A DNA stretch of 64,000 nucleotides from Bacilli bacterium (lineage in GTDB: Bacteria > Bacillota_I > Bacilli_A > RF39 > UBA660), in NCBI GenBank assembly GCA_017433415.1, contig JAFRHI010000009.1, positions 1 to 64,000 on the forward strand. The letters are read 5' to 3'. The notes under the pieces were generated by a model that was not told the origin of the DNA, ran no database searches, and worked only from the letters and a program-made list of their open reading frames with translations. Shown here piece after piece: positions 2,136 through 25,702 of this stretch (the first letter of the stretch is position 1; each line of letters begins with the position of its first letter). Both the position numbers and the translations under genes were made by a program.

Positions 2136-3512
2136 ATGTTAAAAGCACTTGATTTGCTTAGAAGATTAGGTTGGGCAGTAATCGACTTTATATATAGTTT
2201 AATTGATACTTTATTTAATATACTAAAAGAATTAAATTTATATGATATTGTTGATAGTGTTTCAGATAATACGATTTTTAGAAATTTCCATTCTGGAATA
2301 ATTGCTATTGCCATAACCTTATTAGCATTGTTTATTGCTTGGAGATTTGTCATGAAAATTCTAGAACCAGATGAGGGTTTATCTACTCATCAAATAGTTA
2401 TGGAAATTGTTAAATGTAGTGTGCTTGTGTTAATGAGTGTTTTCTTGTTTACACAAGCCAATACTTTATCTATGAAATTAAGTGGTTATACTTCTAATAT
2501 ATTTACTAGTAATGGAACTACTTTATCATCATCCATGCTTACGATGTATGTAAATTATTCTGATGGTTATAAAGCAAGTGATGAATTTAAAAAGGAAGAT
2601 ATTGGTGCTAATATAAAAAATGAAACATTTACTAAGAAAAGGATGTTTAATGATAAATATGTTACTAATTCAAGATGGATTTTACCAGATGAAAAAGATT
2701 ATAAATATAATATAAATTGGTTAATGGCTATTATAGTTGGTGGCTTTTTTCTATATGCATTATTCTTTAGTGGTATGATGTTGGCTCGTAGGCAAATAGA
2801 ATTTTTGTTTCTGTTTCTTATAAGTCCAATAGTATTTGCAACTTCTATTGGTAATAAACAACGAAGAAGTGCAGTTATAGAACAACTAGTTTCATTAATG
2901 TTGCAAGGTGCAGTTGTTATGATGATAATTGGAATCACAGTAATAGTGATGCAGTCTATTAATAGTACAACTTTCTTTGCAAATTCTCAATTTAAAGATA
3001 TGGCTTTAAAATCATTAATGTTTATTGGATGTGGTACTTTCCTACTTACTGGATCACAAGTTATTAATAGATTTATTGGAGCAAATGTATCTGCTAATTC
3101 TGGTCGTGAGCAATTAATGAGTTTAATGAGTTATGGACATACTATGTCAATGGCTACTCATGTTGGTAGTAATGCTCTTACTGGTGCAGGTGCTTTTGGT
3201 CTAGGTGTTGCATCATCAGCTGTTGGTAAAGTTGGTGGTAATAAAGTTGTTAATAAAGTTGGTAATGCTATTCAAAAATTTGGTAATAGTATTAAAGGAT
3301 CTGGTGGAACTTCTAGTAGTCCTATTGGAAATATGGTTAGAGGTGGTATTGGAAATACTATTGAAAAATTTGGTGGTAAAGTCAAAAATTCTACACCATC
3401 TAATCTTGGTAAATCTATGAGAATGAGAGGTCGTGAAAATATGGGAGAAGCAGTTAGTTCCATAATGCCACAAAGAAATATGTATCGTAGAAGATATAGG
3501 TCAAGGGAGTGA
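2136..3512 (+). CDS. VirB6/TrbL-like polytopic membrane protein
   Basis: 458 aa with about six membrane segments (near residues 54-75, 90-108, 195-217, 222-238, 252-275 and 288-305). A hydrophilic loop sits between the second and third, and a long glycine- and serine-rich C-terminal tail follows (from about 340: GGNKVVNK, KGSGGTSSSPIG, then arginine-rich RRRYRSRE). This is the usual form of the VirB6/TrbL channel component of Gram-positive ICEs, which forms part of the inner-membrane pore. It sits between the VirB2-like and VirB3-like genes. The tail is built from near-repeats of G-N-x-I-x-K-F-G. Start ATG 2136 follows GGTGAGG at a slightly long distance. Confidence 0.72.
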   Translation: MLKALDLLRRLGWAVIDFIYSLIDTLFNILKELNLYDIVDSVSDNTIFRNFHSGIIAIAITLLALFIAWRFVMKILEPDEGLSTHQIVMEIVKCSVLVLMSVFLFTQANTLSMKLSGYTSNIFTSNGTTLSSSMLTMYVNYSDGYKASDEFKKEDIGANIKNETFTKKRMFNDKYVTNSRWILPDEKDYKYNINWLMAIIVGGFFLYALFFSGMMLARRQIEFLFLFLISPIVFATSIGNKQRRSAVIEQLVSLMLQGAVVMMIIGITVIVMQSINSTTFFANSQFKDMALKSLMFIGCGTFLLTGSQVINRFIGANVSANSGREQLMSLMSYGHTMSMATHVGSNALTGAGAFGLGVASSAVGKVGGNKVVNKVGNAIQKFGNSIKGSGGTSSSPIGNMVRGGIGNTIEKFGGKVKNSTPSNLGKSMRMRGRENMGEAVSSIMPQRNMYRRRYRSRE

Positions 3513-3518
3513 TAAGTT

Positions 3519-3836
3519 ATGTATATAACAATTAAAAGTATAAAAAAGACTTTAGGTAAATTTATAGAAATGACAGACTTATATATTGGACTTCCTATAC
3601 TTATGATTTTTTTAGTATTGTTTGCTTTTACTAATTTAAAAATTGAAGCATTAATGTTCTTATCTGTTTGTGCATTTTTATTAATACCTATAAATCTTTC
3701 TAAGAAGAATCGTATGTATAAAGTTGTGATTCTTCTTTTTAATTATTTATTTAGAAACAAAAATTATTGTTTCTTTAATGAAGAACTTAAAGATAGTAAA
3801 ATTAAAACTTTAAGTAAATATATAAAAGCAAATTAA
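3519..3836 (+). CDS. VirB3/PrgI-like small membrane protein
   Basis: 105 aa with two adjacent transmembrane helices (about residues 23-60: YIGLPILMIFLVLFAFTN and ALMFLSVCAFLLIPINL) and basic ends. It lies six bases after the VirB6-like gene and directly before the VirB4 ATPase. In conjugation systems this position and topology belong to the VirB3/PrgI-type subunit that links VirB4 to the membrane. No sequence signature confirms the family. Confidence 0.55.
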   Translation: MYITIKSIKKTLGKFIEMTDLYIGLPILMIFLVLFAFTNLKIEALMFLSVCAFLLIPINLSKKNRMYKVVILLFNYLFRNKNYCFFNEELKDSKIKTLSKYIKAN

Positions 3837-3856
3837 AAAGAAAGTAAGGTGATAAT

Positions 3857-6325
3857 ATCGGGTTATTCCCTAAAAAAGAGAAAAAATCAAATAAAGATCA
3901 AGTTTTAGATAAAGAAAAGAAAAAACTTGATAAACAACAACCTAAGTTTGTAATTAAAAAACGAATGAAAAAAAGAATTAAAAACTCTCAAATGTTTTCA
4001 AATGTTAAGTCAGTTGCAGATGATGGTTTAATAAATTTAAAAACTGGTGAAGTTGCATCTTTAATAGAAGTTAAGGCTATTGATTTGTCCTTAACTTCTA
4101 AATCAGAGAAGCAAAACTTTTTTTATGCTCTAAAAAGTTTATATCAAGTAAAAGGACTTAACCTTAAATGTTATAAGTTAGATCAAAAAATAAATCTTAA
4201 TAATAACAAAATTAATTTAGATGAATTAATTGATTATTATAAGGAAGATACACAAAAACATAAATTACTTGATGAAAGTAAAAGATTAATAGAAGAATTG
4301 GAAGAAAATCACTATACCATATCTAGTGTATATTATTTAGTTGTAATTGCTAAAGACTTAAATATCTTAGAAAAACAATTAGATGAAATTGAAGATATTA
4401 TTTCAAATATACAACCTAGATTAAATATGGAAGTAATAGATAACAGATTAGAAATATATAAATTTTTAACTAATTTATATATGAATCCTAAAGCATTGGA
4501 TGATTTAATCTGGAGTGATTTACCATCATTACTTTCCCCACTAAATATACAAGAAAGAACTAATATGCTTAAAATTGATGATATAGAGGCTCAAATGGTT
4601 ACTATTAAAAATATTCCACCTTTTGTTGATGAGTTATTCTTTGAAGAAATATTTAATGTTCCAGATGTAAGGGCTTGTATAAGTATTAAAGATGCTATTA
4701 GTCAAGATGAGCTAGTTCGTTGGGTAAATTCACAATATCAGTTTTTACTATCTGATAGAAGTACTACAAAAAAATTAAGTGATGCTACTGAGTTAGATAC
4801 ACAAAAGGAAAACTTCCAACAATTAATGTTAGAAATAAAAAATGGTGATGAAAAGATTAAAGAAGTTTCTTTAACTCTTATTATTACTGGTAATAGAAAA
4901 GAACGAGATACCGCTTTAAGAGATTTAAAAAGACTTGTAGATAGATACCAAATAAAACTTGATGTTCCAAAGTTAAGACAAATGGAGTGTTGGCAAAACT
5001 TTGATATTACTACATTATCTTTAAATGACTATTCTATCTATTTACCTACTTTAACATTAAGTGCAGGTTTTCCATTTACCAAAACTTATTTTAATGATTC
5101 TAAAGGCTATATGTTAGGTGTAGATTTACATACTTCTTTACCTATATTCTTTGATCCATTCACTTTAAATAATCAAAGAACTTCTCATAATATAGCAATA
5201 GTTTCATCTACTGGTGGTGGTAAAAGTTTTACTATGAAAAAAATGATTATTAACGAATATGCTCGTGGTACTAAAATTTTTATTTGGGATGCAGAAAACG
5301 AATATAAAAATTTAGTTACTTCAAATGGTGGTGAATATATAGATCTCTACTCTAAAAAGGGTGGTATTATAAATCCACTTCAAATAAGATATATTCCTAG
5401 TGATGATGAAGATAAAGAAACAAAAGAAACAGATTGTCCTTTAGCAAAGCATTTAGGTTTTCTAGAGGCATTCTTTAAAACTGCTTTTGAGAATATTACT
5501 GAAAAAGAATTAGTAATGTTATTATCAGTAGTTGAGTCTTTATATAATACTAAGGGTATATTTAAAAATACATCTATTAATACTTTACAAAGTTTAAGTC
5601 CTACTGATTATCCAATATTTAGTGAGCTATATGAATATTTACCAGTTTATAAAAAGCAATTAGATAGTAATGAGAAAAAGAAATTAATAGATCAATTAGA
5701 AATATTAGTTTCTAGGTTTTTAACTGGAACTGATTCATTCTTATTTGATGGTCATACTAATATTGATTTATCAAATGATTTAATTGCTTTCAATTTACAA
5801 GAATTATTATATAGTGGAAATCAAAGATTAATTAATACTCAAACATTGAATTTACTTACTTACCTAAATAATAGTATTGTTGCTAACAAAATACAAAATG
5901 AAAAATCTGGTAATAAGAAAAAACATATAAGTATTGTTGTTGATGAATTCCATTTATTTATTGATGAAAACAATAACGAAGTTCTTAAAAACTTTGGACA
6001 ACTTGCCAGAAGAGTTCGCAAATATTCCACTAATCTGGTTGTCAGTACCCAAAGTGTAAAAGACTTCGTAGGTAATGCTAGTGTATTAAGACATGCAACA
6101 GCTATTTTTAATAACTGCCAATATACTATGGTTGGTATGTTAAAAGAAGATGATTTACTAGCATACTTAGAATTATTTAAAAATAATCCACTTACAGATA
6201 CACAAAAAGCATTCTTATTATCTGCTAAACGAGGTGAATTCCTACTTAATGTAGATAATAAAAATAGACTTAGAGTTTGGATTCGTGCTACTGAATTAGA
6301 ACGAACTATGATGGGAGAAAACTAA
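3857..6325 (+). CDS. VirB4-type conjugation ATPase (apparent ATC start)
   Basis: A type IV secretion ATPase that powers channel assembly and transfer. Walker A (STGGGKS) lies near residue 450. The Walker B region (IVVDEFHLF) lies near 700, followed by RRVRKYSTNLVVSTQS, a conserved VirB4 block. The first in-frame ATG is at 3965 and has no ribosome site. AAGGTGAT (3847-3853) sits just before an in-frame ATC at 3857, which would give a protein opening MGLFPKKEKKS, a credible N-terminus, and about 822 aa. Between 3848 and 3965 the frame is open with no ATG, GTG or TTG. Gene identity is certain; the ATC start is inference. Confidence 0.88.
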   Translation: MGLFPKKEKKSNKDQVLDKEKKKLDKQQPKFVIKKRMKKRIKNSQMFSNVKSVADDGLINLKTGEVASLIEVKAIDLSLTSKSEKQNFFYALKSLYQVKGLNLKCYKLDQKINLNNNKINLDELIDYYKEDTQKHKLLDESKRLIEELEENHYTISSVYYLVVIAKDLNILEKQLDEIEDIISNIQPRLNMEVIDNRLEIYKFLTNLYMNPKALDDLIWSDLPSLLSPLNIQERTNMLKIDDIEAQMVTIKNIPPFVDELFFEEIFNVPDVRACISIKDAISQDELVRWVNSQYQFLLSDRSTTKKLSDATELDTQKENFQQLMLEIKNGDEKIKEVSLTLIITGNRKERDTALRDLKRLVDRYQIKLDVPKLRQMECWQNFDITTLSLNDYSIYLPTLTLSAGFPFTKTYFNDSKGYMLGVDLHTSLPIFFDPFTLNNQRTSHNIAIVSSTGGGKSFTMKKMIINEYARGTKIFIWDAENEYKNLVTSNGGEYIDLYSKKGGIINPLQIRYIPSDDEDKETKETDCPLAKHLGFLEAFFKTAFENITEKELVMLLSVVESLYNTKGIFKNTSINTLQSLSPTDYPIFSELYEYLPVYKKQLDSNEKKKLIDQLEILVSRFLTGTDSFLFDGHTNIDLSNDLIAFNLQELLYSGNQRLINTQTLNLLTYLNNSIVANKIQNEKSGNKKKHISIVVDEFHLFIDENNNEVLKNFGQLARRVRKYSTNLVVSTQSVKDFVGNASVLRHATAIFNNCQYTMVGMLKEDDLLAYLELFKNNPLTDTQKAFLLSAKRGEFLLNVDNKNRLRVWIRATELERTMMGEN

Positions 6326-6327
6326 TT

Positions 6328-7089
6328 ATGAGTTGTCGTTCTAATATAGTTATGAAACAAAAAGATGGTATTTACAAATCTATTTATTGCCATAATGATG
6401 GTAATCTGGAACATAATGGAGTTATGCTTTACTATCATTATTCAGATCCAATTAAAGTAGAATTATTAACTAGTCTAGGTGATATTTCTTTATTAGAAGA
6501 AAATGTTTTTCCAGATACTACTAAGGAACATACTTTTGATAATAGACAAGATTTTGTAACAGTTGCATATCATCGTGATCGTGGTGAAGATTTAAGATTT
6601 GATGTTTATAATTCAAAAGAAAAATTATTAGATGATTTTTCTAAATCTAATATAAACTATTTATATCTTTTTGAAGATGATAAATGGTATGTTGTAGATA
6701 AAGAAAAAGGTCTTAATTTAGAATCTTTAGAAGATAATTTGTTAAAAGAAAATTTAATTGATAATCCATCTATTCCATATAGTTATGAAGATGAATTAGC
6801 AGTAGAATTAATGAATTATGTTAAAGATTTTGATCCTTATGAATATAATGATGTTTATGATAATGATGATCATGCTTTTAATGATATGAAAAGAAGTTTA
6901 GCAACTACATCTGGTATTGATACATTAATAGAATCATTATGTAATGATATTCAATGTTTTGCTAGTGAAAATGATTTAAGTAATCATGATATTTCTGATT
7001 TATCTAAAAGAGCATTTAATCTACTTACTAAACTTAATCAATATTCTAAGGTGTTAGAAAAACAAGAAGATAAAGAGATGGATATTTAA
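6328..7089 (+). CDS. Conserved mobile-element protein of the 'SCRSNI…IYCHNDG' type
   Basis: 253 aa, two bases after virB4 and overlapping the next start by one base. The N-terminus (SCRSNIVMKQKDGIYKSIYCHNDG, in two parts SCRSNIVMKQKDG and IYKSIYCHNDG) followed by a YYHYSDPIKVELLTSLGDISLL stretch is a recognisable pattern in phage and ICE hypothetical proteins that begin MSTRSNI and contain IYCHxDGY. Residues after about 130 are acidic and low in complexity. The activity is unknown and no catalytic motif is visible. It ends in KEMDI, close to the NEMDI end of the ICE SSB, which is probably coincidence but worth noting. Confidence 0.55.
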   Translation: MSCRSNIVMKQKDGIYKSIYCHNDGNLEHNGVMLYYHYSDPIKVELLTSLGDISLLEENVFPDTTKEHTFDNRQDFVTVAYHRDRGEDLRFDVYNSKEKLLDDFSKSNINYLYLFEDDKWYVVDKEKGLNLESLEDNLLKENLIDNPSIPYSYEDELAVELMNYVKDFDPYEYNDVYDNDDHAFNDMKRSLATTSGIDTLIESLCNDIQCFASENDLSNHDISDLSKRAFNLLTKLNQYSKVLEKQEDKEMDI

Positions 7090-7994
7090 TGAAAAAAATA
7101 TTAGCATTGCTTTTATCTTCTACTACTGGACTAATAATAATTGCAATAATTATTTTAGTTCCAATTTTAATGATAATGGATTTTTTTGGTGCTAATATAA
7201 CAGATGGTTATGTTGAGGATAATATGGAATATGCAGATCAATATAAATCTGTCGTAAATAAAAATTTCAAAAAAAATAATGGTTATGTTTCATTAGAAAG
7301 AATTTTATATTTCTATCTTGAAGATGAAAGTCTAACTTTTGATGAAATATATACTGATAATTTAGATAAAGAATCTAAAAAAATGTTGCCCATTAGCGAT
7401 GTATGTGAACTTACAAAATATAAAAATTTTGATGTTTGTAAAGAAGAAAATATATCAGAAAGTGGTCAGATAGATGAAGATCAAGCAAAGCCATTTTCCC
7501 CACCAATAGATTTTACTAGTTCAACTATAACTAGTTTTTTTATGGAACAAAGAGTTGTCTTTGGTAAAGATGATGTTCACGAAGCATGGGATATTGCAAA
7601 TTCAGCCCAGACACCAGTTTACTCAACTTGTGATGGAAAAGTTGAATCTGTATCATTTACTCAAAGTCAAAATGTTACTGATACTTCAAATGGTGGTGGT
7701 AATCAAATTAAAATTAGTTGTGAAGTAAATGATTTAACTTACCAAGTTTGGTATGCTCATCTCTTTCCAAATAGTGCAAAAGTTTCTAAAGGACAACCAG
7801 TAACAAAAGGACAACAAATTGCTAGTGTTGGAACTACTGGTTATAGTACTGGTAACCATTTACATTATCAAGTTTCATTAGATGGTAAAACAATAGATGG
7901 TATGAGTTTAATAGATTTTACTTATGAAGATGATAATACTTTTAAACCTAATCTTGATTATCAAGTTCCATCTTTACCATCCTATAAAAATTAA
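7089..7994 (+). CDS. Membrane-anchored M23 peptidase of the conjugation apparatus
   Basis: 301 aa with an N-terminal membrane helix (about residues 9-33) and a C-terminal LytM/M23 domain (from about 155). Zinc-site features are VHEAWDIA (an HxxxD form of the usual HxGxD), WYAHL, and GNHLHYQV (the HxH motif). Such enzymes cut peptidoglycan cross-links locally so the mating channel can cross the wall. Unlike many ICE homologues there is no N-terminal NlpC/P60 or lysozyme domain; residues 35-140 are of unknown fold. It is the last gene before the oriT candidate. Confidence 0.85.
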   Translation: MKKILALLLSSTTGLIIIAIIILVPILMIMDFFGANITDGYVEDNMEYADQYKSVVNKNFKKNNGYVSLERILYFYLEDESLTFDEIYTDNLDKESKKMLPISDVCELTKYKNFDVCKEENISESGQIDEDQAKPFSPPIDFTSSTITSFFMEQRVVFGKDDVHEAWDIANSAQTPVYSTCDGKVESVSFTQSQNVTDTSNGGGNQIKISCEVNDLTYQVWYAHLFPNSAKVSKGQPVTKGQQIASVGTTGYSTGNHLHYQVSLDGKTIDGMSLIDFTYEDDNTFKPNLDYQVPSLPSYKN

Positions 7995-9232: not shown

Positions 9233-9536
9233 ACATATTTATTTTACCCCAGAAGAATTTGCTCGTATTTCTGAATATCAAGAAAGGAACAAAATGTCTT
9301 ATTCAAGTGCAGTTTGTTCTCTTTCTATTTCTGCATTAAATAGTGATGATGTCTTAGATAGACTTAGTAAATTAGAATCTAGTTTAAATTATATAATCAA
9401 AAAGTTAAAATATATTTCATTGTTAGATGAGCAAATATATTCTGATATGGATTTTGATAATTTAACAGATCCTAAAAATAGTAAAGCCTTAAATGAATTT
9501 CATAAAAAAATAAGGAATAACTATATAGATGACTAA
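9216..9536 (+). CDS. MobC-like ribbon-helix-helix accessory protein
   Basis: 106 aa. KKIDKHIYFTPEEFARI followed by SYSSAVCSLSISAL gives the strand-helix-helix layout of relaxosome proteins such as MobC, and a short heptad-like stretch (LSKLESSLNYIIKKL) follows. It directly precedes and overlaps the relaxase gene, the usual mobC position. Expected role: binding oriT and aiding strand opening. The C-terminal third is without a recognised motif. Confidence 0.6.
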   Translation: MKKIDKHIYFTPEEFARISEYQERNKMSYSSAVCSLSISALNSDDVLDRLSKLESSLNYIIKKLKYISLLDEQIYSDMDFDNLTDPKNSKALNEFHKKIRNNYIDD

Positions 9537-10836
9537 AAGTCCTAAAGTTATATTTAATTCTATCTTTACTTTTGCTTTAAACAATCCAGATAGCAAATAT
9601 ACTAATCATAATAAAAGTATAAAGAGAGTTCAAAAAATGTTTGACTATTATACTAATGAAGAAAAAAGAGCTATGTCTATGTTTGATTATTATACTGGTA
9701 AACTTACTAAAGAAGATACAATGAATTTAGTTACTGAAAATGGGAAATTTGCTACTGAAAAAGAAGTTGAAAAAAGAAAAAAATTAGCAGTCAAATATCT
9801 AGAAAATTCTAATTTATGGCAAGGTGTTTTATCTTTTAATAATGATTATCTAAATAAAAATATAGATATTCATAAATTGGAACAAGAACTTGCTACTAAT
9901 ATTTTACCTAAATTTTTTAAAAGATGTGGTTTTAAAGATCCAGATAAGATGTTTTATCAATTAGCACTTCATACTGATACAGATAATTTGCATTTTCATT
10001 TTTCTTTTATGGAAAAAGAGCCAAATTATGAATATTCAAAAAAGAAAGTTGGATATCGTAGATCTGGTGAACTATCTCAAAGTGAAATTGATTTTTTAAA
10101 AGCACAAGTTATCCATACAATAGAAAAAGAAAAGATATATACCCCTTTAGTTATAGAAACTAATAAAGAAATTGAAGAATTAAAAAAATACTTTAGTCCT
10201 AAAGAAAAAAATTATCTTTTAAGAAATAAAAAAGATTTAATATTAGAAGAAAAAATATTAAGACTTGGTCAGCTACTTTATAATGATAGACTTGGTAAAG
10301 ATACTAAAATAAAGTATGGATCAATTAAGAATAAAGAAATAATATCTTTAACTAAAGATATTAAGAATTATATTTTTTCTAAATCAAATGACAACTTTAA
10401 ATTGGAATATGATAATTTTAAAGAAGCATTAAATAAAATTAATGATTATTTCTACAAGATTAATGAAGATAATAACATTAAAGATATTAAAGTAGATACT
10501 ACTGCTATTGATAATAAAAATAAGTATGTAGATAATTATATCTATAATGCTATTGTTAATTATGCAGATTATAATTATAAGAAAGAATCTAAAAATATAT
10601 CTAAAATAAAAGAAAATGATATTATTCAAGAAATAATATTGAAACATTATCTTAATAATAAAAAGCAAACTAGAAAAGATATATTAAAAAACTATCTATC
10701 TAGTTCTATTCCAAAACAAAGATTTAAACATAAACAAGAGATTGAAAATGCTATTAGAAATATTAATGATGAAATGGAAGAAGCACAAAAAGAATTTAGT
10801 AAACTATTTCAAAATGATAATTCATATACAAAATGA
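9529..10836 (+). CDS. MOB-P type relaxase (MobP2-like)
   Basis: 435 aa. The metal-binding histidine motif LALHTDTDNLHFHFSF lies near residues 145-160, and the N-terminal region (VIFNSIFTFALNNPDSKYTNHNKS, read as VIFNSIFTF then NNPDSKYTNHNKS) resembles the MobP2 group. A likely nucleophile tyrosine is one of the pair in MFDYYTNEE or MFDYYTGKL (about residues 40-60), an unusual near-duplicate MFDYYT block. The enzyme nicks oriT and pilots the strand to the coupling protein. The C-terminal 200 residues are lysine- and asparagine-rich and helical. It follows the MobC-like gene with an 8-base overlap. Confidence 0.78.
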   Translation: MTKSPKVIFNSIFTFALNNPDSKYTNHNKSIKRVQKMFDYYTNEEKRAMSMFDYYTGKLTKEDTMNLVTENGKFATEKEVEKRKKLAVKYLENSNLWQGVLSFNNDYLNKNIDIHKLEQELATNILPKFFKRCGFKDPDKMFYQLALHTDTDNLHFHFSFMEKEPNYEYSKKKVGYRRSGELSQSEIDFLKAQVIHTIEKEKIYTPLVIETNKEIEELKKYFSPKEKNYLLRNKKDLILEEKILRLGQLLYNDRLGKDTKIKYGSIKNKEIISLTKDIKNYIFSKSNDNFKLEYDNFKEALNKINDYFYKINEDNNIKDIKVDTTAIDNKNKYVDNYIYNAIVNYADYNYKKESKNISKIKENDIIQEIILKHYLNNKKQTRKDILKNYLSSSIPKQRFKHKQEIENAIRNINDEMEEAQKEFSKLFQNDNSYTK

Positions 10837-14023: not shown

Positions 14024-14041
14024 AATTTAGAGGTGGATATA

Positions 14042-14785
14042 ATGAAAAAGAAAAGGAAATTAAAAAAGAAAAATATAATAATTTTAATCATTATAATCAT
14101 ATTATTAGTTATATTTTGTATTTCATTAACTAATATAATTAATTGGAAAAAAGATAATGATGATAACCTAAAAATACAAGAAGATTTAAACCAGTATATA
14201 AAAGAAGAACCTAAAGAAGATGAAGAATACAAAATAGATTTTAAAGCATTAAAAGAACAAAATTCTGATGTAGTTGCATATTTAGAAGTTCCAAATACAA
14301 ATATTAAATATGTAGTTGTTAAAGGAAAAGATAATGATTATTATTTAAAACATAACTTTAATAAAGAATATAATAATGCAGGATGGATATTTGCAGATTA
14401 TAGAAATAAGTTTAATTTTACTGATTATAATATAATTATTTATGGTCATAATACAAGAGATGGATCTATGTTTGGAACTTTAAAAAATGTTTTAAATGAA
14501 GATTGGTTTAGTAATAAAGATAATCACGAAATAGTATTAGTAACTGAAAATAGAATAAATAAATATCAAGTATTTTCAGTATATGAAGATAAAGCAAGTG
14601 ATTACCCAATTACTACTGAATTTAAAAACGATAATGAATATCTTAAATTCTTAAAAACAATTAAGAAGAAAAGTAAATATGATTTTAATGTAGATGTATC
14701 AGAAGAAAAAAGTATTTTAACATTATCAACTTGTGCCACTAATAATCAAAACAGAGTAACATTACATGCAATAAATATAAAATAA
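14042..14785 (+). CDS. Class B-type sortase
   Basis: 247 aa from ATG 14042, behind AGAGGTGG. A basic N-terminus and one membrane helix (about residues 9-30) anchor the enzyme facing outward. The catalytic set is visible: His136 in YGHNTRDGSMFG, Cys231 in LSTCATN, and Arg238 in NRVTLHA. The DYYLKHNFNKEYNNAG block and the GSMFGTLKN segment fit class B. It joins surface proteins to cell-wall peptide stems. The partner is almost certainly the NPHTG protein encoded just upstream, since class B enzymes use NPxTG/NPxTN-type motifs. Confidence 0.88.
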   Translation: MKKKRKLKKKNIIILIIIIILLVIFCISLTNIINWKKDNDDNLKIQEDLNQYIKEEPKEDEEYKIDFKALKEQNSDVVAYLEVPNTNIKYVVVKGKDNDYYLKHNFNKEYNNAGWIFADYRNKFNFTDYNIIIYGHNTRDGSMFGTLKNVLNEDWFSNKDNHEIVLVTENRINKYQVFSVYEDKASDYPITTEFKNDNEYLKFLKTIKKKSKYDFNVDVSEEKSILTLSTCATNNQNRVTLHAINIK

Positions 14786-16997: not shown

Positions 16998-19040
16998 ATG
17001 AATTTATCCCTTTTAATTTTATTGCTTGTTATTTTTATTTTCATTATAGGTTTTATGTATATAGAGCCTATTATATCTAAACATAAAATAAAAAATAATA
17101 ATGAATATGGATCTGCAAGGTTTTCTACTGAAGCAGAAATAAATAAGTATTTTACTAAAGAAAAAATTTCAAATATTAATGAAGTTGGTTTTCCAGTATA
17201 TTATGATAAAAATGTATCTCATGTATGGTTTGATAAAGAAACACCACACTATGTTTATTTAGGATCAAGTGGATCTGGTAAAAGTGTTACTTGTGTTATT
17301 AATATGGTAACTTTTATAGCAAATGCTAAAAAATCAAGAAGTGTCTTTGTAACTGATCCTAAAGGTGAAATATACCAAACAACTTCTAAAATGTTACATG
17401 ATAAAGGATATAAAGTTTTAACAATAGATTTTAGACATCCAGAATTATCTAATCATATAAATATATTAGAGCCTATCATTCGTGAATATGAAAACTATAT
17501 TAAATATGAAAAATTGGCTAATGAAACAAACGAAGAAAATTTAAAACTAGAATATCAAAATAAATCTATATCTAGTTATGCAGAAACAAATAGATTAATT
17601 ACATCTCTAGCATCTATGATTACTTATGATAAAACACAAGGTAAAGATCCTTTTTGGAATAATAGTGCTAAAAACTTATTAGAGGGTTTAATTGGATTCT
17701 TTTTAGAAGAATATAAAGATAATAAAATTAAAAGAGAACAAATTACTATGACTTCTATTCGTAAGTTTCAAAACTCTACTATGGAAGATAAAAACTCTAA
17801 AAAGTTTAAATTTTATATAGAACAAAAACCTTATGGATCTAAGTCTAAAGATAGTTTAATACCTATACTTTCATCTAGTGAAAATACATATAAATCTATT
17901 ACTAGTGTTTTCTCAGAAAAAATGGCAATATTTGATGATGTCAATGTTGCTAATGTTACTAGTAAATCAGATTTTGATTTTGATATTTTAGGTAAAGAAA
18001 AATCAGCTATCTTTTGTATCATTCCAGATGAAGATAAAATTTATTATTCTTTAGTTACTATTATATTAGGTTTACTTTATAAAGAATTAGTAAAACTTGC
18101 TAACTCTACTGATAGTAAAAAAGTTCCAGTAGAAATTGATTGGATTTGTGATGAATTTAGTAATTGCCCACCATTAATTGAGCCAAGCATAGAGTCCATA
18201 ATTAGTGTGGCTAGATCCAGAGGACTTCGTTATCACTTATTTATACAAAGTTTAAGTCAATTAGATAATGTATATGGTAAGGAAGTAGCACAAATAATAC
18301 TTGATAACTCTGGACTTGCTTATCTAAAAACTAATACAATGGATACTGCAGAGGCTATCAGTAAAAGACTTGGTAAGAAAACTATTGAAGCAAATTCTAT
18401 AAGTCAATCTGTTAGTTTGATGAATTACAATGGCAATAAATCTACTTCATTAATTGCTCGTGATTTATTAACACCAGATGAAGTTAAGAATCTGCATTAT
18501 AAAACAATTATATTTCCAAATATAGGTTATCCAATATTTAGGGACACTGTCATCTATAAAAAATTGTCTTGCTATTCTAAAGGTGAATTACCTAGAAAAA
18601 TTACACCTTTAAAAGATTTAAGCAATACTTATTTTGTAGTTGAAAATATAGAATCTAAATATGATAGATTAACTAGAAATAGAATTAATAAGAGTATATA
18701 TAAAGAAGAAATATCTGCTTATGATAAATTTAAAGAAGAAGAAATTGCAAAATTAAATAACATCGTTGAAGTTATTCAAAATTTACTAAAAGATAAAATT
18801 AGTTTATTTGAATATAAAGAAAATAATAATCGTACTTTTGCTAGTTTTGAATTAAAAGAAAAATTAACTACAAAAGAATTAACTTTTATAAAAGGTAAAG
18901 TAAATAAAGAAGTATTTCATATTGAAATAGACAATGGAAATAATACTAAATCTACAATAGAAATTCATTTAAAGAATCCACTTGAAAAAGATAATACTCT
19001 ACAAAAAGAGCTAATAAATTCAAGTGGTAATAATGAATAA
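16998..19040 (+). CDS. VirD4/TraG-type coupling protein
   Basis: 680 aa. An N-terminal membrane helix (residues 1-22) is followed by GSARFSTEAEI, the usual pre-Walker segment, then Walker A GSSGSGKS near residues 88-96 and FVTDPKGEIYQTTS. Walker B lies in DWICDEFSNCP, followed by SVARSRGLRYHLFIQSLSQL. These are hallmarks of the coupling ATPase that brings the relaxase-bound DNA to the mating channel. The last 130 residues are a variable acidic and lysine-rich tail. Confidence 0.93.
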   Translation: MNLSLLILLLVIFIFIIGFMYIEPIISKHKIKNNNEYGSARFSTEAEINKYFTKEKISNINEVGFPVYYDKNVSHVWFDKETPHYVYLGSSGSGKSVTCVINMVTFIANAKKSRSVFVTDPKGEIYQTTSKMLHDKGYKVLTIDFRHPELSNHINILEPIIREYENYIKYEKLANETNEENLKLEYQNKSISSYAETNRLITSLASMITYDKTQGKDPFWNNSAKNLLEGLIGFFLEEYKDNKIKREQITMTSIRKFQNSTMEDKNSKKFKFYIEQKPYGSKSKDSLIPILSSSENTYKSITSVFSEKMAIFDDVNVANVTSKSDFDFDILGKEKSAIFCIIPDEDKIYYSLVTIILGLLYKELVKLANSTDSKKVPVEIDWICDEFSNCPPLIEPSIESIISVARSRGLRYHLFIQSLSQLDNVYGKEVAQIILDNSGLAYLKTNTMDTAEAISKRLGKKTIEANSISQSVSLMNYNGNKSTSLIARDLLTPDEVKNLHYKTIIFPNIGYPIFRDTVIYKKLSCYSKGELPRKITPLKDLSNTYFVVENIESKYDRLTRNRINKSIYKEEISAYDKFKEEEIAKLNNIVEVIQNLLKDKISLFEYKENNNRTFASFELKEKLTTKELTFIKGKVNKEVFHIEIDNGNNTKSTIEIHLKNPLEKDNTLQKELINSSGNNE

Positions 19041-19080
19041 CTTAATTAACTAGTTCATATTTTTAACTGGAGGCTATTCC

Positions 19081-19326
19081 ATGTTAGAAAATGATATAGA
19101 AGTTAGATTTAGTACAAAACATTTACCTTTTGAATATAAATTACTTGAATATAGATTAATTATTAATAAAGAGTTATACGATGAAAAAGTAATTGATCTT
19201 AGAACATATAATGAAATGGAAAATTCTATTATATCTAGATTAAAAAAAATTAGAAATGAATATTCCCAAAGTACTGAGGATGATTTGACAATGTTAAACA
19301 AGAGAGGTAACATGCAATCATCCTAG
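19081..19326 (+). CDS. Small hypothetical protein before the recombinase
   Basis: 81 aa, ATG 19081 behind TGGAGG. It reads FSTKHLPFEYKLLEYRLIINKELYDEKVIDLRTYNEMENSIISRL, helical with a short charged C-terminus. Small genes directly upstream of large serine recombinases in Gram-positive ICEs are often conserved with the recombinase and may act as directionality factors, but no motif here proves that. A stop 41 bases before the recombinase start suggests one transcript. Confidence 0.48.
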   Translation: MLENDIEVRFSTKHLPFEYKLLEYRLIINKELYDEKVIDLRTYNEMENSIISRLKKIRNEYSQSTEDDLTMLNKRGNMQSS

Positions 19327-19367: not shown

Positions 19368-21140
19368 ATGGATATAAAAAAAGCAAGAGAAGATTTAAGA
19401 AAAGGAAAAACAATTTATGATATGCAATTAAAAGTTGCTTATTATGGTCGTGTTTCTACTGATAAAGACGATCAGTTAAATTCTTTGGAAAATCAACAAA
19501 ATTATTTTGAAGATATGATTAGAGAAAATAAAAATTGGATTTTTACTCGTGGCTATATTGATGAAGGTATTAGTGGTACTGCAGTTAAAAATCGTGATTC
19601 TTTCTTAAAAATGATAGAAGATGCTACTTTAGGAAAAATAGATTTAATATTAACTAAAGAAATTTCAAGATTTTCTAGAAACACAGTTGATAGTATAAAA
19701 TATACTGAATATCTATTAAAACAAGGTGTAATTGTTTACTTCCTTTCTGATAATTTAAATACTATTCAAGAAGATGCAGAATTTAGACTTACTATTATGT
19801 CTAGTATGGCACAAGATGAAGTTCGTAAATTATCTGAAAGAGTTAAATTTGGTATTAATAGAATGATTAAAGATAGAAAATTAATAGGTGGTAATTTAAC
19901 TGGTTACTATAAAAAAGATGGAAGATATGAAATAAACCCAAATGAAGCACCAATGATTAAATACTTATTTACTACTTATGCTAGTGGTAGTATAGGATTA
20001 AAAAAGATTGGTGAAGAACTAGCAGAAATGGGATATGTTAATTCTAAGGGAAAACCTTATTGTCAAACTACTTTAGCAAAGATGTTATCTAACCCTAGAT
20101 ATAAAGGTTATTATACTGCTAAACTTAGTGAAGTTGAGGATTATAAAACTCATAAGAAAAAGAAATTACCTAAGGAAGATAATATTATAGAAAAAGATGA
20201 TAGAATTCCACCAATAGTATCAGAAGAATTATGGGATAAGGCTAATTTATTACATGAAAAAAGAAAAAAATTACCATCAAGGCATGTTCTTAATTCTGAA
20301 GAACATATTAAAAAATATAAATATTCTGCAAAACTTTTTTGTAAAGATTGTAATAGTATCTTTATTCGTAGTGGTGGATCAAATCGTGCATTAAATCCAA
20401 CATGGGCTTGTAGAACTTATAAAGTTGATGGTGTATCTAAATGTGAATCCCCAATAATTAAAGAAAGTTACTTAGATAAAATTTTTGTAGATGTCTTTAC
20501 TGATTTTATTAAACATAAAAAAGATTATTTAGGACAAGTCTTATCAGAATATAAAAACATAGTAAAAAACTTTACTACTGATATTGATACAGAAGATATT
20601 AATAGAAAAATAGATCAAATTGAAAAACAAAAAGATAAATTATTAGATTTAAGTTTAAAAGGAATAATTGATGATTTTGAATTTAAGAAAAGAAATGATA
20701 AATTTAATCAAGAACTTTTTGCTTTACAAAAACAAATTGATAATTCACAAAACCAAAATTTAGAGGAAGATAGATTAAGAACTAAATTAAAAGAAATAGA
20801 AAACTGCTTAACTACTAAATTAGACATAAAAGAAAACTTACCATTTTTAGTAAATCTATTAGTAGATAAAGTTATTGTAGAAAAAGTAAATAATGATAGA
20901 AAACATGTTAGATTATATATTTATTTTGATTTTAATGCACCAGACATTGATATAGATTTAGACATGAACGACAAAATCGAACTTAAAGATAGGACTTTAA
21001 AAACTATGGCTTGTCGTAGAGATTCTTCTGTCCTAAAGTGTTCGTGTATTGATACAAAGCAATCCAGGGTTTGTAAGACTGGGTCAATTATTGGGGAAAG
21101 AGAGGCTTTTTTCTTATATTGGGAGATTCGGTTTTGGTGA
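19368..21140 (+). CDS. Large serine recombinase (ICE integrase) with a host-encoded tail
   Basis: About 590 aa. AAGGAAG sets the start at ATG 19368. The catalytic serine is S30 in YYGRVSTDK. GYIDEGISGT and LTKEISRFSRN (active-site arginines) follow; the recombinase domain lies at about 160-290, a zinc-ribbon (CKDCNSIF, later C-x-C) at about 320-360, and a coiled-coil region at about 400-460. It integrates and excises the element at one site. The last 28 or so codons (from about 21055) lie in host PBP sequence read in another frame, so the C-terminus (ending FFLYWEIRFW) is a junction product. Confidence 0.93.
   Translation: MDIKKAREDLRKGKTIYDMQLKVAYYGRVSTDKDDQLNSLENQQNYFEDMIRENKNWIFTRGYIDEGISGTAVKNRDSFLKMIEDATLGKIDLILTKEISRFSRNTVDSIKYTEYLLKQGVIVYFLSDNLNTIQEDAEFRLTIMSSMAQDEVRKLSERVKFGINRMIKDRKLIGGNLTGYYKKDGRYEINPNEAPMIKYLFTTYASGSIGLKKIGEELAEMGYVNSKGKPYCQTTLAKMLSNPRYKGYYTAKLSEVEDYKTHKKKKLPKEDNIIEKDDRIPPIVSEELWDKANLLHEKRKKLPSRHVLNSEEHIKKYKYSAKLFCKDCNSIFIRSGGSNRALNPTWACRTYKVDGVSKCESPIIKESYLDKIFVDVFTDFIKHKKDYLGQVLSEYKNIVKNFTTDIDTEDINRKIDQIEKQKDKLLDLSLKGIIDDFEFKKRNDKFNQELFALQKQIDNSQNQNLEEDRLRTKLKEIENCLTTKLDIKENLPFLVNLLVDKVIVEKVNNDRKHVRLYIYFDFNAPDIDIDLDMNDKIELKDRTLKTMACRRDSSVLKCSCIDTKQSRVCKTGSIIGEREAFFLYWEIRFW
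21041..21066 (+). other. Right ICE-chromosome junction (attR region)
   Basis: Recombinase sequence with ICE-like composition gives way to a PBP reading frame. In the PBP frame, a stop (21034-21036) precedes AGTGTTCGTGTATTGATACA, then AGC AAT CCA GGG TTT GTA (S-N-P-G-F-V) matches the region after the SxN transpeptidase motif. The residue two before Asn is Gln rather than the expected Ser, so the crossover should fall at or just after 21055-21057. The exact core needs the left junction, which is outside the window. Confidence 0.6.
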
Positions 21141-21918
21141 AAAGAGTGGTGTTGATTTAAATGGTGAAGGTAAGGGTATTTTGTTTCCCTTGGATAGGGT
21201 TGGTAATGTAGAACTTGCAACTAGTGCATTTGGTCAAGGTATAAGTGTGACTCCTATACAGCAAGTAATGGCAGTATCAGCTGCTGTGAATGGTGGTTAT
21301 TTGTATAAACCCTATATTGTTAAAAATATTAGCGATAATACAAATACGGTTGTTAAGGAATATAATAAAGTTTTAAGAAGGAAGGTAATTAGTTCTAAAA
21401 CATCTGCTATTATGCGCTATGCATTAGAGAGTGTAGTTGCTAAAGGAGGAGGAAAAAGTGCATATATTGATGGCTATAGAATAGGGGGAAAAACAGGAAC
21501 AGCTCAAAAACAAGAAAATGGCCATTATTTAGTTAATAATTATATAATGTCTTTTATGGCAGTAGTTCCTGCCAATGACCCGGAAGCAGTTTTATATTTG
21601 GCCATAGATAATCCTAAGCATACGGCAATGCTTTCTAGTTATACGACTACGCCTATCGCAAGAAGAATTCTTTTAGATATTATTAATGCTTTGAAAATAG
21701 AAAAGCAAGATAATGCTTTAGAAAAAGATTTGGAATGGAATGATAAAGTTACGTACACAGTTCCTAATGTAATTGGGAAAAATATTAATGATGCCAAAAA
21801 AGAGCTATGTAATTTTGAAATCGTAATAGAAGGTACTGGTGATATTGTTTTTGAACAATCCCCTAGAGCTTTACAAAGAATTGAGGATGGTAGTAAAGTG
21901 CGTATTTTCGTTAAATAG
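21058..21918 (+). pseudogene. C-terminal part of a class B penicillin-binding protein, split by the ICE
   Basis: The fragment begins in the transpeptidase domain (SNPGFVRLGQLLGKERLF) and contains ATSAFGQGISVTPIQ, the KTG box in GGKTGTAQK (about 150 residues in), and a single PASTA domain at the end (VTYTVPNVIGKNINDAKKEL). The SxxK active serine and most of the SxN motif are missing. They should lie left of the ICE. A TTG at 21049 could be read as a start but has no ribosome site. One PASTA domain and the location before mraY fit SpoVD/PbpB-type proteins. As it stands the gene cannot make an active enzyme without ICE excision. Confidence 0.85.
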
Positions 21919-21966: not shown

Positions 21967-23502
21967 ATGAATGAAACAATAGGAGCTAGGGGTGGCAAAA
22001 ACGATCGCCGAAGAGTGCTTAGAATTAAGAAAAAACAACAAAAGAAACTGCAGGAAATAGCTCATGAAGAAGAAATAAAGCAATTAGAAAAAGAAGTTAA
22101 AAAAAAGCAGGTATATACTTTAATTAAGACTTTACCTATTGTAATTTTAGGTGGTACAATTAAATCTTTTTTAGACGCTGGAGAGCAAAAAAAAGAAGTC
22201 AATCATGATTTAGAAGTAAGTGAATATGAAGAAGGTGTTACACCGAAGAAAGATACTTCCACAAGAGTTATTACTACACCAGAGGGTAATAAAGTTAGAG
22301 TAAAGATTTCTACTGCAAAGAAGAGTATTTTTGATGTTGTTCCTGATATAGGTAGGCAAGAAGAGTCTAGTGTTAGGGAACAGTTAGAAGATAAGCAAAT
22401 TGATATGTTTGATACTATTCCTATTGATTATACTTTTCCTGTTGATATTAACACCCAAAAAAAAATACATAATTTGAAATCACGTAAATTAGTTGAAGAA
22501 TATGAAAAAGAACTTAAAAACATTAGATATGACTTGAGGCAACTAGTGTTTAAATATAACGTAATAGTTAAACAAGAAGAGAATGTAGTGTTAAGTGAAG
22601 ATGTTGAAGTCCTTATTGATAAACTTAGTGATGTAATAAAAAAAATAGAATCTTTGAAGGATAAGATTAAAATAAAAGATTTGGATAAATATGATGCTAG
22701 TTATATTTATATTTTAATTGAAGATTATTTGCAGGAGTTTAAATATGGAAAAACAGTTAGTGAATTAAAAGATTCACCTCTTTATATTTTGATTGCGGAA
22801 AAATTAAATGAATTAGATAAAGCCAAAGAAAAATTAAATAAAAAATTACAGGAAGATAAAGAAAAATATGAAGAGCGAGAAGAAAATTTTGATGAGTTAA
22901 AAGAAAAATATTATGATGTTGATAAAATTAATAAAGAACTTATAGATTTTCAAATAGAACAGGAAAAACTACTTGCAGAAATTAGAGAAAAAATTTCAAA
23001 TAGTATAGATATTAAAGAAAAAGTAGAAGTACAATTTAAGTCTATGAATAGGCAGAGTAAACGATTACTAGGGATAATGGCTTTACAGATGTTTATTCCT
23101 GGAGCTAGAACCGTTAAAGCGTTAACAACAGCTACAGCTTCATATTTATATTTTATGAGGAATGTTTTAAAACCGGAAACAACAACTAGGAAAATTAAAG
23201 TTATTACAGTTAAGGACTATAGTAAACAAATTGAGAGAAGTATTGAAGCAATAGATGATGCTACTAAATTGCTTGGTAAAACTAGCAAACAAGTTGATAA
23301 AATGATAGATGAGATAAAAGATAAATTTAAAGATTATATTGGTGTTATAAAAGAATGTGATGAGTTACTAGCTAATCTTTATAAGATTAAAGTAAATCTT
23401 AAAGAAAAAGAATATGAAATGGAATTAATAAAAGAAGAACAAAAGAAGGAATTAGAACGAAATGAAGCTAAAGTTCTACAAAGAGGAGAATATCCAATGT
23501 AA
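21967..23502 (+). CDS. Unknown coiled-coil, membrane-associated protein in the division cluster
   Basis: 511 aa, not recognised. The N-terminus is basic (RRRVLRIKKKQQKKL), followed by a hydrophobic stretch (YTLIKTLPIVILGGTIKSFL, about 47-66), a linker, and long charged coiled coils (about 165-360 and 405-500) separated by a second hydrophobic segment (LLGIMALQMFIPGARTVKAL, about 368-388). The fragment IDYTFPVDINTQKKIHNLKSRKLVEEYEKEL may bind a partner. It sits between the split PBP and mraY, so a role in envelope growth, division or spore-wall formation is plausible but unproven. Confidence 0.6.
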   Translation: MNETIGARGGKNDRRRVLRIKKKQQKKLQEIAHEEEIKQLEKEVKKKQVYTLIKTLPIVILGGTIKSFLDAGEQKKEVNHDLEVSEYEEGVTPKKDTSTRVITTPEGNKVRVKISTAKKSIFDVVPDIGRQEESSVREQLEDKQIDMFDTIPIDYTFPVDINTQKKIHNLKSRKLVEEYEKELKNIRYDLRQLVFKYNVIVKQEENVVLSEDVEVLIDKLSDVIKKIESLKDKIKIKDLDKYDASYIYILIEDYLQEFKYGKTVSELKDSPLYILIAEKLNELDKAKEKLNKKLQEDKEKYEEREENFDELKEKYYDVDKINKELIDFQIEQEKLLAEIREKISNSIDIKEKVEVQFKSMNRQSKRLLGIMALQMFIPGARTVKALTTATASYLYFMRNVLKPETTTRKIKVITVKDYSKQIERSIEAIDDATKLLGKTSKQVDKMIDEIKDKFKDYIGVIKECDELLANLYKIKVNLKEKEYEMELIKEEQKKELERNEAKVLQRGEYPM

Positions 23503-24616: not shown

Positions 24617-25702
24617 ATGAAGATAGATAAAAAATTAATTATAGCAGTAATCTTTTTAGCACTTTTTGGTTTGCTAATGATTTATTCTTCATCTAGTATC
24701 TGGTCTTTATATAAATATAATGATTCTTTTCATTATTTAAAATATCAAGCTGTTTTTTTTATAATAGGAGTTATTTTAATGATTTATATTTCTAAAATTA
24801 ATTATAATTTTTATTATAAATATTCAAATATAATTATTTTAAGTAGTTTTATATTATTAATTCTTGTATTAATACCAGGTATAGGTAGTATTAGAAATGG
24901 TAGTAGGAGTTGGTTTGGAATAGGATCTTTAGGAATTCAACCTAGTGAAGCGGCTAAATTGGGACTTATAATTTTTACAAGTAAATATTTAGCTAATAAT
25001 GAAAAGAATATTAATAATTATGTTAAAGGTGTTTTTCCAATATTATTTGTTTCTTTAATATTTTTTGGACTTATTATGTTACAGCCTGATTTAGGTACAG
25101 GAATGATTATTTTTATCTCTGTTATTGCTCTTTTTTTTGTGGCAGGTGTTCCTCTAAAATTTTTTGCTTTTGGTAGTATATTAGGAATAATAGGGATAAT
25201 TATTTTAATAGTAATCGCTCCTTATAGGATGGATAGAATTACGTCTTTTATTAATCCTTGGAAAGACGAACTAGGAACAGGATTTCAAATAATTCAAAGT
25301 TTATATGCAATAGGACCAAGTGGATTATTAGGTACAGGATATTTGAATTCTGTACAAAAGCATTTTTATTTGCCAGAACCACAAACAGATTTTATTTTTT
25401 CAGTAATAGCTGAAGAGTTTGGCATTGTTGGAGCTATTATTGTTGTAGGACTATTTATTATAATATTTTATTTAGGTATTACAATTGCTTGTAAAAGCAA
25501 TGATAAGTTTGCAAAATATCTTTCATTTGGTATTATATTTCAGATGATTTTTCAAGCTACTATGAATTTAATGGTAGTTGTTGGTTTGATTCCTGTTACG
25601 GGGGTAACACTCCCATTTCTTTCTTATGGTGGATCTTCTTTGTTAGTATCTATGGCATCTATTGGGATTGTTCTTAATATTTCAAGTAATACTATTAATT
25701 AA
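24617..25702 (+). CDS. ftsW: SEDS-family peptidoglycan polymerase (FtsW/SpoVE-like)
   Basis: 361 aa with about ten membrane helices. Motifs are typical: GIQPSEAAKLGLIIF, MLQPDLGTGM (holding the catalytic Asp), LGTGYLNSVQKHFYLPEPQTDFIF (in parts GLLGTGYLNS and LPEPQTDFIFSVIAEEFG), and PVTGVTLPFLSYGGSS. SEDS proteins polymerise glycan strands from lipid II with a class B PBP partner, here presumably the product of the gene split by the ICE. Neighbourhood favours FtsW or the sporulation paralogue SpoVE over RodA, but sequence alone does not decide. ATG 24617 follows AGGTGATACT. Confidence 0.88.
   Translation: MKIDKKLIIAVIFLALFGLLMIYSSSSIWSLYKYNDSFHYLKYQAVFFIIGVILMIYISKINYNFYYKYSNIIILSSFILLILVLIPGIGSIRNGSRSWFGIGSLGIQPSEAAKLGLIIFTSKYLANNEKNINNYVKGVFPILFVSLIFFGLIMLQPDLGTGMIIFISVIALFFVAGVPLKFFAFGSILGIIGIIILIVIAPYRMDRITSFINPWKDELGTGFQIIQSLYAIGPSGLLGTGYLNSVQKHFYLPEPQTDFIFSVIAEEFGIVGAIIVVGLFIIIFYLGITIACKSNDKFAKYLSFGIIFQMIFQATMNLMVVVGLIPVTGVTLPFLSYGGSSLLVSMASIGIVLNISSNTIN

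Follow-up and report, generated by a model that had tools for sequence, protein, structure and literature searches.

The closest described systems are the skin elements in sigK of B. subtilis and, as skinCd, of C. difficile, in which, as in the elements of the lineage analyzed here, an element encoding a serine recombinase occupies a mother-cell gene at a short core and its removal restores the ORF (PMC5025042). In C. difficile, the timing of skinCd excision is set by a separate directionality factor (PMC5025042). Skin elements are, however, prophage-like and lie in sigK, whereas the present locus carries a conjugative element (ICE) in spoVD, with three sites in that gene, two further cortex genes occupied, and an excision step that is predicted. 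The SPbeta, vfbin, and vrin elements in spsM, spoVFB, and spoVR, respectively, also occupy mother-cell genes with precise att cores, and reconstitution of these host genes during sporulation has been demonstrated experimentally; unlike the ICE, they are phage-derived and have other targets (PMC4191935). The gin element in gerE of B. cereus shares with our locus a non-phage nature and serine recombinases, as well as an extra excision factor, GirX, to which the 81-aa ORF described below would be the candidate counterpart; its target is gerE, and no conjugation genes are reported among its contents (PMC5595907). Finally, the yin element in yabG of C. botulinum, again an element in a sporulation gene, showed integrated and excised subpopulations within one culture; it is prophage-like and known from one strain and one target, whereas occupation of spoVD recurs across a genus and beyond (PMC10747680).

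Insertions of elements into spoVD, spoIVA, or dacB were described in no paper found by a literature search covering few subscription papers. ICEs with large serine recombinases, such as the Tn1549/Tn5397-like elements, combine a relaxase, a coupling protein, a VirB4-like ATPase, and a large serine integrase. The ICE described below differs from these in an integrase lineage specific for sporulation-gene codons and in its MobL-type relaxase.

Genomes compared

The window, the whole stretch of DNA that was analyzed, comprises bases 1-64000 of contig C4 (69,757 bp) from a metagenome-assembled genome (MAG) of 1.21 Mb and 91.5% completeness, labeled G000. The genus comparison set consisted of 39 genomes including G000, and 80 relatives, some of them from the same genus, were additionally fetched from public genomes for the spoVD comparison; names among the relatives include Candidatus Onthousia and Scybalousia, on which basis the lineage, one of uncultured gut Bacilli, probably belongs to the order RF39. 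Since SpoIIIAE (PF09546) was found in 0/39 genus genomes, SpoIIR and SpoIIP were taken as sporulation markers. The absence of SpoIIIAE despite common SpoIIR, SpoIIP, and SpoIVA marks a reduced sporulation programme in the genus.

The right end of an ICE lies within a penicillin-binding protein gene

The window contig begins inside the ICE, and of both element ends only attR is visible. The features of the element are as follows.

1-21064, forward strand: right part of the ICE, with conjugation genes and integrase; left end outside the contig
3965-6325, forward strand: VirB4/TraG-like ATPase (P-loop_TraG 3e-18)
7089-7994, forward strand: M23 peptidase of the transfer module (Peptidase_M23 1.9e-20)
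9529-10836, forward strand: MobL-type relaxase (MobL 2.3e-14)
14033-14785, forward strand: sortase, cargo (Sortase 6.3e-15)
16998-19040, forward strand: TraG/VirD4-type coupling protein (T4SS-DNA_transf 2.7e-58)
19056-19059, forward strand: CATA box, 25 nt 5' of the 81-aa ORF and similar to the one that precedes spoVD; a weak motif alone
19081-19326, forward strand: 81-aa ORF immediately 5' of the integrase gene, a candidate for the recombination directionality factor; no Pfam match
19368-21140, forward strand: large serine integrase (Resolvase, Recombinase, and Zn_ribbon_recom); the ATG at 19368 aligns with homologues
21059-21064, forward strand: attR core GCAATC within the SxN codons, from the attL/attR comparison in L053

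The sequence-only reading had proposed that an ICE splits a class B penicillin-binding protein (PBP) inside its catalytic domain, and this is borne out. The relaxase, coupling protein, VirB4-type ATPase, and serine integrase by which an ICE is recognized are all present, together with an SSB and a methylase, and the ORF at 21049-21918 matches positions 103-298 of 299 of the Pfam Transpeptidase profile, followed by PASTA.

The exact boundary was placed with locus L053, which holds both ends of a 3.0 kb relative of the ICE carrying a small ORF and an integrase. Its attL reads TTGCAATC followed by TTGG and its attR AAGCAATC followed by CAGG, the right-end sequence being the same as in the window. 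Comparison of homologous elements assigns the DNA left of the core GCAATC to the element, so the TTG codon at 21049, near which a start had been considered, is not the start of the host gene. A functional short protein made from the fragment, with its start there, is scarcely credible and was rejected: the TTG codon is open, but it lies in element DNA, is unconserved among same-site elements, and would give a product with neither the SxxK nor the SxN serine.

In another species, locus L123 shares the gene order of the right end and the point of insertion and encodes an integrase with 80% identity, and relatives of the 81-aa ORF occupy the same place in L123, L118, and L053. The integrase ORF crosses attR into host DNA (window 21065-21140), as it does in several relatives, so that its last ~25 residues differ between the integrated and the excised state. 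The L053 element (3025-6001) is the smallest found at this site, and two of its small genes resemble, by eye, a RelB/RelE-type toxin-antitoxin pair.

The interrupted gene is spoVD

To the right of the core, the host genes are arranged as follows.

21059-21918, forward strand: C-terminal half of spoVD, extending from the att core through the stop codon, with the KTG motif and PASTA domain inside
21967-23502, forward strand: host protein of 511 aa, coiled-coil-looking, no Pfam match; homologues in L036, L039, and L041
23582-24562, forward strand: mraY (Glycos_transf_4 and MraY_sig1)
24617-25702, forward strand: SEDS protein of FtsW/SpoVE type (ftsW 399.8 bits, cut-off 337.5; spoVE 410.9 bits, cut-off 448.8)

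The 511-aa protein sits between spoVD and mraY, and its homologues take the same place in relatives. The ORF at 21049-21918 aligns to residues ~349-634 of a full-length congener SpoVD, and the half is 76-82% identical to the closest intact congeners. Within the genus, the open frames of full-length relatives span about 634-656 aa, and the one intact relative tested scored 716.4 bits against the SpoVD equivalog profile TIGR02214 (cut-off 688); the window half scored 328.8 bits over profile positions 345-634, being too short alone to reach the cut-off. Because the intact relative passes the equivalog cut-off, the class B PBP split in the window is, on this homology, spoVD (stage V sporulation protein D) and not a vegetative division PBP.

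The sequence-only reading had left open whether the gene would serve division or the spore wall; the spore wall stands with this assignment, whereas division falls away. Relatives carry a separate PBP2X-like gene (715-726 aa), and spoVD was undetectable in ten congeners that are sporulation-negative, so the gene is not needed for vegetative division. It was also considered that a division-essential PBP has been disrupted and that the cell survives through a paralogue or a free gene copy, since the gene lies in a dcw region and adjoins mraY and ftsW. The equivalog score, the separate PBP2X-like gene, and the lack of spoVD detection in 12/39 congeners, several of them over 93% complete, make this highly improbable, and it was rejected.

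All intact relatives read NSC/NPGFV at the junction (slash, point of insertion), whereas the window reads IQSNPGFV; therefore, the cut falls in the SxN codons, the region to which it had been assigned from the letters. The window half contains KTG and PASTA, and the SxxK and SxN serines, expected beyond the other end of the element, are present in all joined relatives and lie in the N-half of homologues such as that in L053. Relatives that lack the element have an uninterrupted gene of ~634 aa, and none was seen in which the PBP starts near 21049.

The claim had also been made to depend on an upstream PBP part. Searches with PBP_dimer and with the full-length protein found the N-half nowhere in the G000 assembly, but neighboring genes are missing with it, and in relatives it is present. 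A PBP2X-like gene, sigE, and an adjacent LysR gene all lie upstream of spoVD in G017 and were not found in G000, where the best match to the LysR gene adjoining spoVD is a 36% paralogue. Their joint loss with the N-half points to a contig absent from the MAG, which is the simplest cause.

Elements recur at three sites in spoVD

Across the 39 genus genomes, spoVD was intact in 16, interrupted and still joined to element DNA in eight (G000, G041, G048, G051, G049, G002, G047, and G004), ended exactly at an att core in two (G018 and G006), frameshifted without an element in one (G019), and not found in 12. Insertions fall at three sites: the SxxK motif (site 0), the SxN motif (site 1, occupied in the window), and VTPI/QQ (site 2). 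Joining the halves at the core restores the full ORF wherever both halves are present; the window's own spoVD shows only attR. In G041, G051, G049, G002, and G004, joining gave SpoVD proteins of 630-633 aa with all motifs, which for G004 also required two contigs to be abutted at site 1. The sizes of spanning elements lie between 3.1 kb (G004) and 16.2 kb (G049).

Among the 80 fetched relatives, 12 genes were cut at the SxN codons and three at SxxK. An integrase 48-80% identical to that of the window lies directly upstream at eight of the 12 SxN-cut loci, and the other four start near a contig edge. In a tree, integrases that share a target cluster together (site 1, 10 rows, 99/97; site 2, 4 rows, 100/100; dac, 2 rows, 100/100). 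Viral contigs with related recombinases had no spoVD match.

Several contigs end exactly at att cores (C50/C46 of G018, C26/C40 of G006, C59/C49 of G004, and C24 of G048), with an exact overlap of 99 bp in G006 and one of about 141 bp in G018. This suggests a coexistence of occupied and empty sites within these samples, through either excision or strain mixture. Such ends, at which the assemblies are disturbed, and the origin of the window in a MAG might also be taken to indicate an assembly chimera in which the spoVD fragment was wrongly joined to the end of the ICE. We rejected this explanation, which is highly improbable given that the same junction occurs with homologous integrases in independent MAGs and that whole elements lie on single contigs in G041, G051, G049, L053, and L080.

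A further contig of G049 (C44, locus L212) ends on the right in an attR that belongs to a site-1 element in spoVD resembling the one in L080. The spoVD gene of G049 itself carries a site-2 element and has an uninterrupted SxN site, and the additional attR is attributable to strain mixture or a second copy.

Other split genes are counterparts of B. subtilis cortex genes

The spoIVA gene is intact in 23 genomes and split in G000 and G024. Its halves in G000 lie on contigs C29 (L161) and C16 (L162), and joining yields ORFs of 491 aa (G000) and 487 aa (G024). A distant serine recombinase lies next to the split gene; that of G000 is Tn1549-like and belongs to an element different from the window ICE. 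Each of the two spoIVA elements has at its left end a ~330-aa ORF with the Cys cluster CERCKIRNYC and no Pfam match (L161, reverse complement 5155-6147, in G000; homologue in G024, L163).

A sporulator-associated DacB-like carboxypeptidase (Peptidase_S11) is split at SITK-IMT, its SxxK motif, in G043 (C28, L202), G051 (C32/C72, L203 and L204), and G004 (C70/C36, L205 and L206). The element in G043 measures 5,864 bp, and the joined ORF has 385 aa; a 547-aa serine recombinase is encoded by the element that splits this gene. The B. subtilis genes dacB, spoIVA, and spoVD appear in one list of genes under sigma-E control that are required to form the cortex (PMC517825), and by analogy spoVD would be expressed in the mother cell in the lineage of the window as well. 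The forespore gene spoIIR was split in none of 29/29 genomes, and spoIIP, found in 28 and in one of these across two contigs, was split by an element in none. Beyond what had been read from the window, several sporulation genes are thus occupied recurrently and at specific sites, the split in spoVD being one instance.

A CATA box precedes the target genes and a candidate directionality factor

A CATA box precedes spoVD in 20/24 genomes, mostly 23-24 nt upstream (shuffled mean 1.3, maximum 6 in 2000), as well as spoIVA in 4/4 and the dac gene in 5/5; it precedes mraY in 0/34. CATA is the core of the -10 element in sigma-E/sigma-K promoters. A sigma-E-like two-box pattern was found in only 2/24 spoVD upstream regions, which have no conserved sigma-E -35 element, the conserved part being CATA alone.

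The box also precedes the 81-aa ORF in the window (at -25) and its relatives in L123, L118, and L053 (4/4), and no CATA box was found before the small ORF of site-2 elements. In C. difficile, the directionality factor alone is mother-cell specific, the recombinase not (PMC5025042). On the basis of the box and this precedent, the 81-aa ORF is a reasonable candidate for a directionality factor.

Sporulation capacity and selection on split genes

SpoIIR and SpoIIP are kept in every genome with an interrupted or att-broken spoVD, and two sigE/sigK-like genes in 9/10 of these; sigE- and sigK-like genes were not found in G000. In the ten genomes that lack both SpoIIR and SpoIIP, spoVD is absent too. 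No spoVD half examined contains an internal stop or frameshift. The dN/dS values, computed from pairwise counts and not per branch, were 0.112-0.133 for pairs with a split spoVD (closest pairs, whole gene) and 0.108-0.154 for intact pairs, which excludes long neutral drift and is compatible with recent insertion.

An ancestral site-2 element in G051 and G004, implying long selection on a split gene, was suggested by dS and failed against G047. An old insertion with continued selection is unsupported because the site-2 recombinase moves horizontally.

Taken together, we consider it probable that an ICE here interrupts a mother-cell gene in a skin-like, excisable manner and is one of several such elements in the lineage. 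Its main rival, given that excision is a predicted step, is a passive hotspot in which spoVD is dispensable in the gut, serine integrases use conserved codons as attB, and insertion inactivates sporulation; all insertions seen would then be recent, as such lineages lose spores or die out. The ten congeners without sporulation markers and spoVD, the frameshifted spoVD of G019, the lack of detected sigE/sigK in the window genome, and recent horizontal spread, as indicated by identical right ends in L056 and L060 despite a spoVD dS of 0.83, all fit this alternative. It is nevertheless unlikely, though not negligible, as interrupted genomes keep their other sporulation genes intact, the spoVD halves remain open, the targets are several genes of one mother-cell pathway with spoIIR and spoIIP spared, and the 3-4 kb elements hold little beyond a recombinase. 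For the window genome's own sporulation, the missing attL, N-half, and sigE/sigK count against the skin-like reading. The lack of spoIVA detection in G002 and G004 also counts against it, tempered by the 77-85% completeness of these genomes, as do the missing CATA box of site-2 elements, the lack of a conserved sigma-E -35 element, and the failed case for an old insertion.

Proposed mechanism and significance

According to the skin-like reading, the integrase in the window would be specific for GCAATC, a short core located within the SxN codons of spoVD, and the element would cost little in vegetative cells, which would have no need for the gene. During sporulation, the integrase and a directionality factor, for which the 81-aa ORF is the candidate, may excise the ICE in the mother cell, which would restore spoVD in time for the cortex to be made; the forespore genome would retain the element. 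We regard as doubtful the further proposal that conjugative elements have found a stable niche in the cortex genes of this lineage. In that case, the ICE would be carried silently by vegetative cells and spores, and its programmed excision in the doomed mother cell would both rebuild spoVD and free a transferable circular ICE before lysis, coupling conjugation to sporulation.

Rearrangement of sporulation genes has so far been represented by isolated examples from Bacillus and Clostridium. In the uncultured gut lineage described here, three probable mother-cell cortex genes harbor elements of several recombinase lineages, including one borne by a conjugative element, and the notion of mother-cell genes as a safe harbour for mobile DNA becomes a testable rule. 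Additionally, a split spoVD can escape gene calling, with the result that species are underrated as spore formers. RF39 bacteria have been predicted to sporulate, and spoVD was reported at reduced presence among them (PMC10868615); split genes could be part of the reason.
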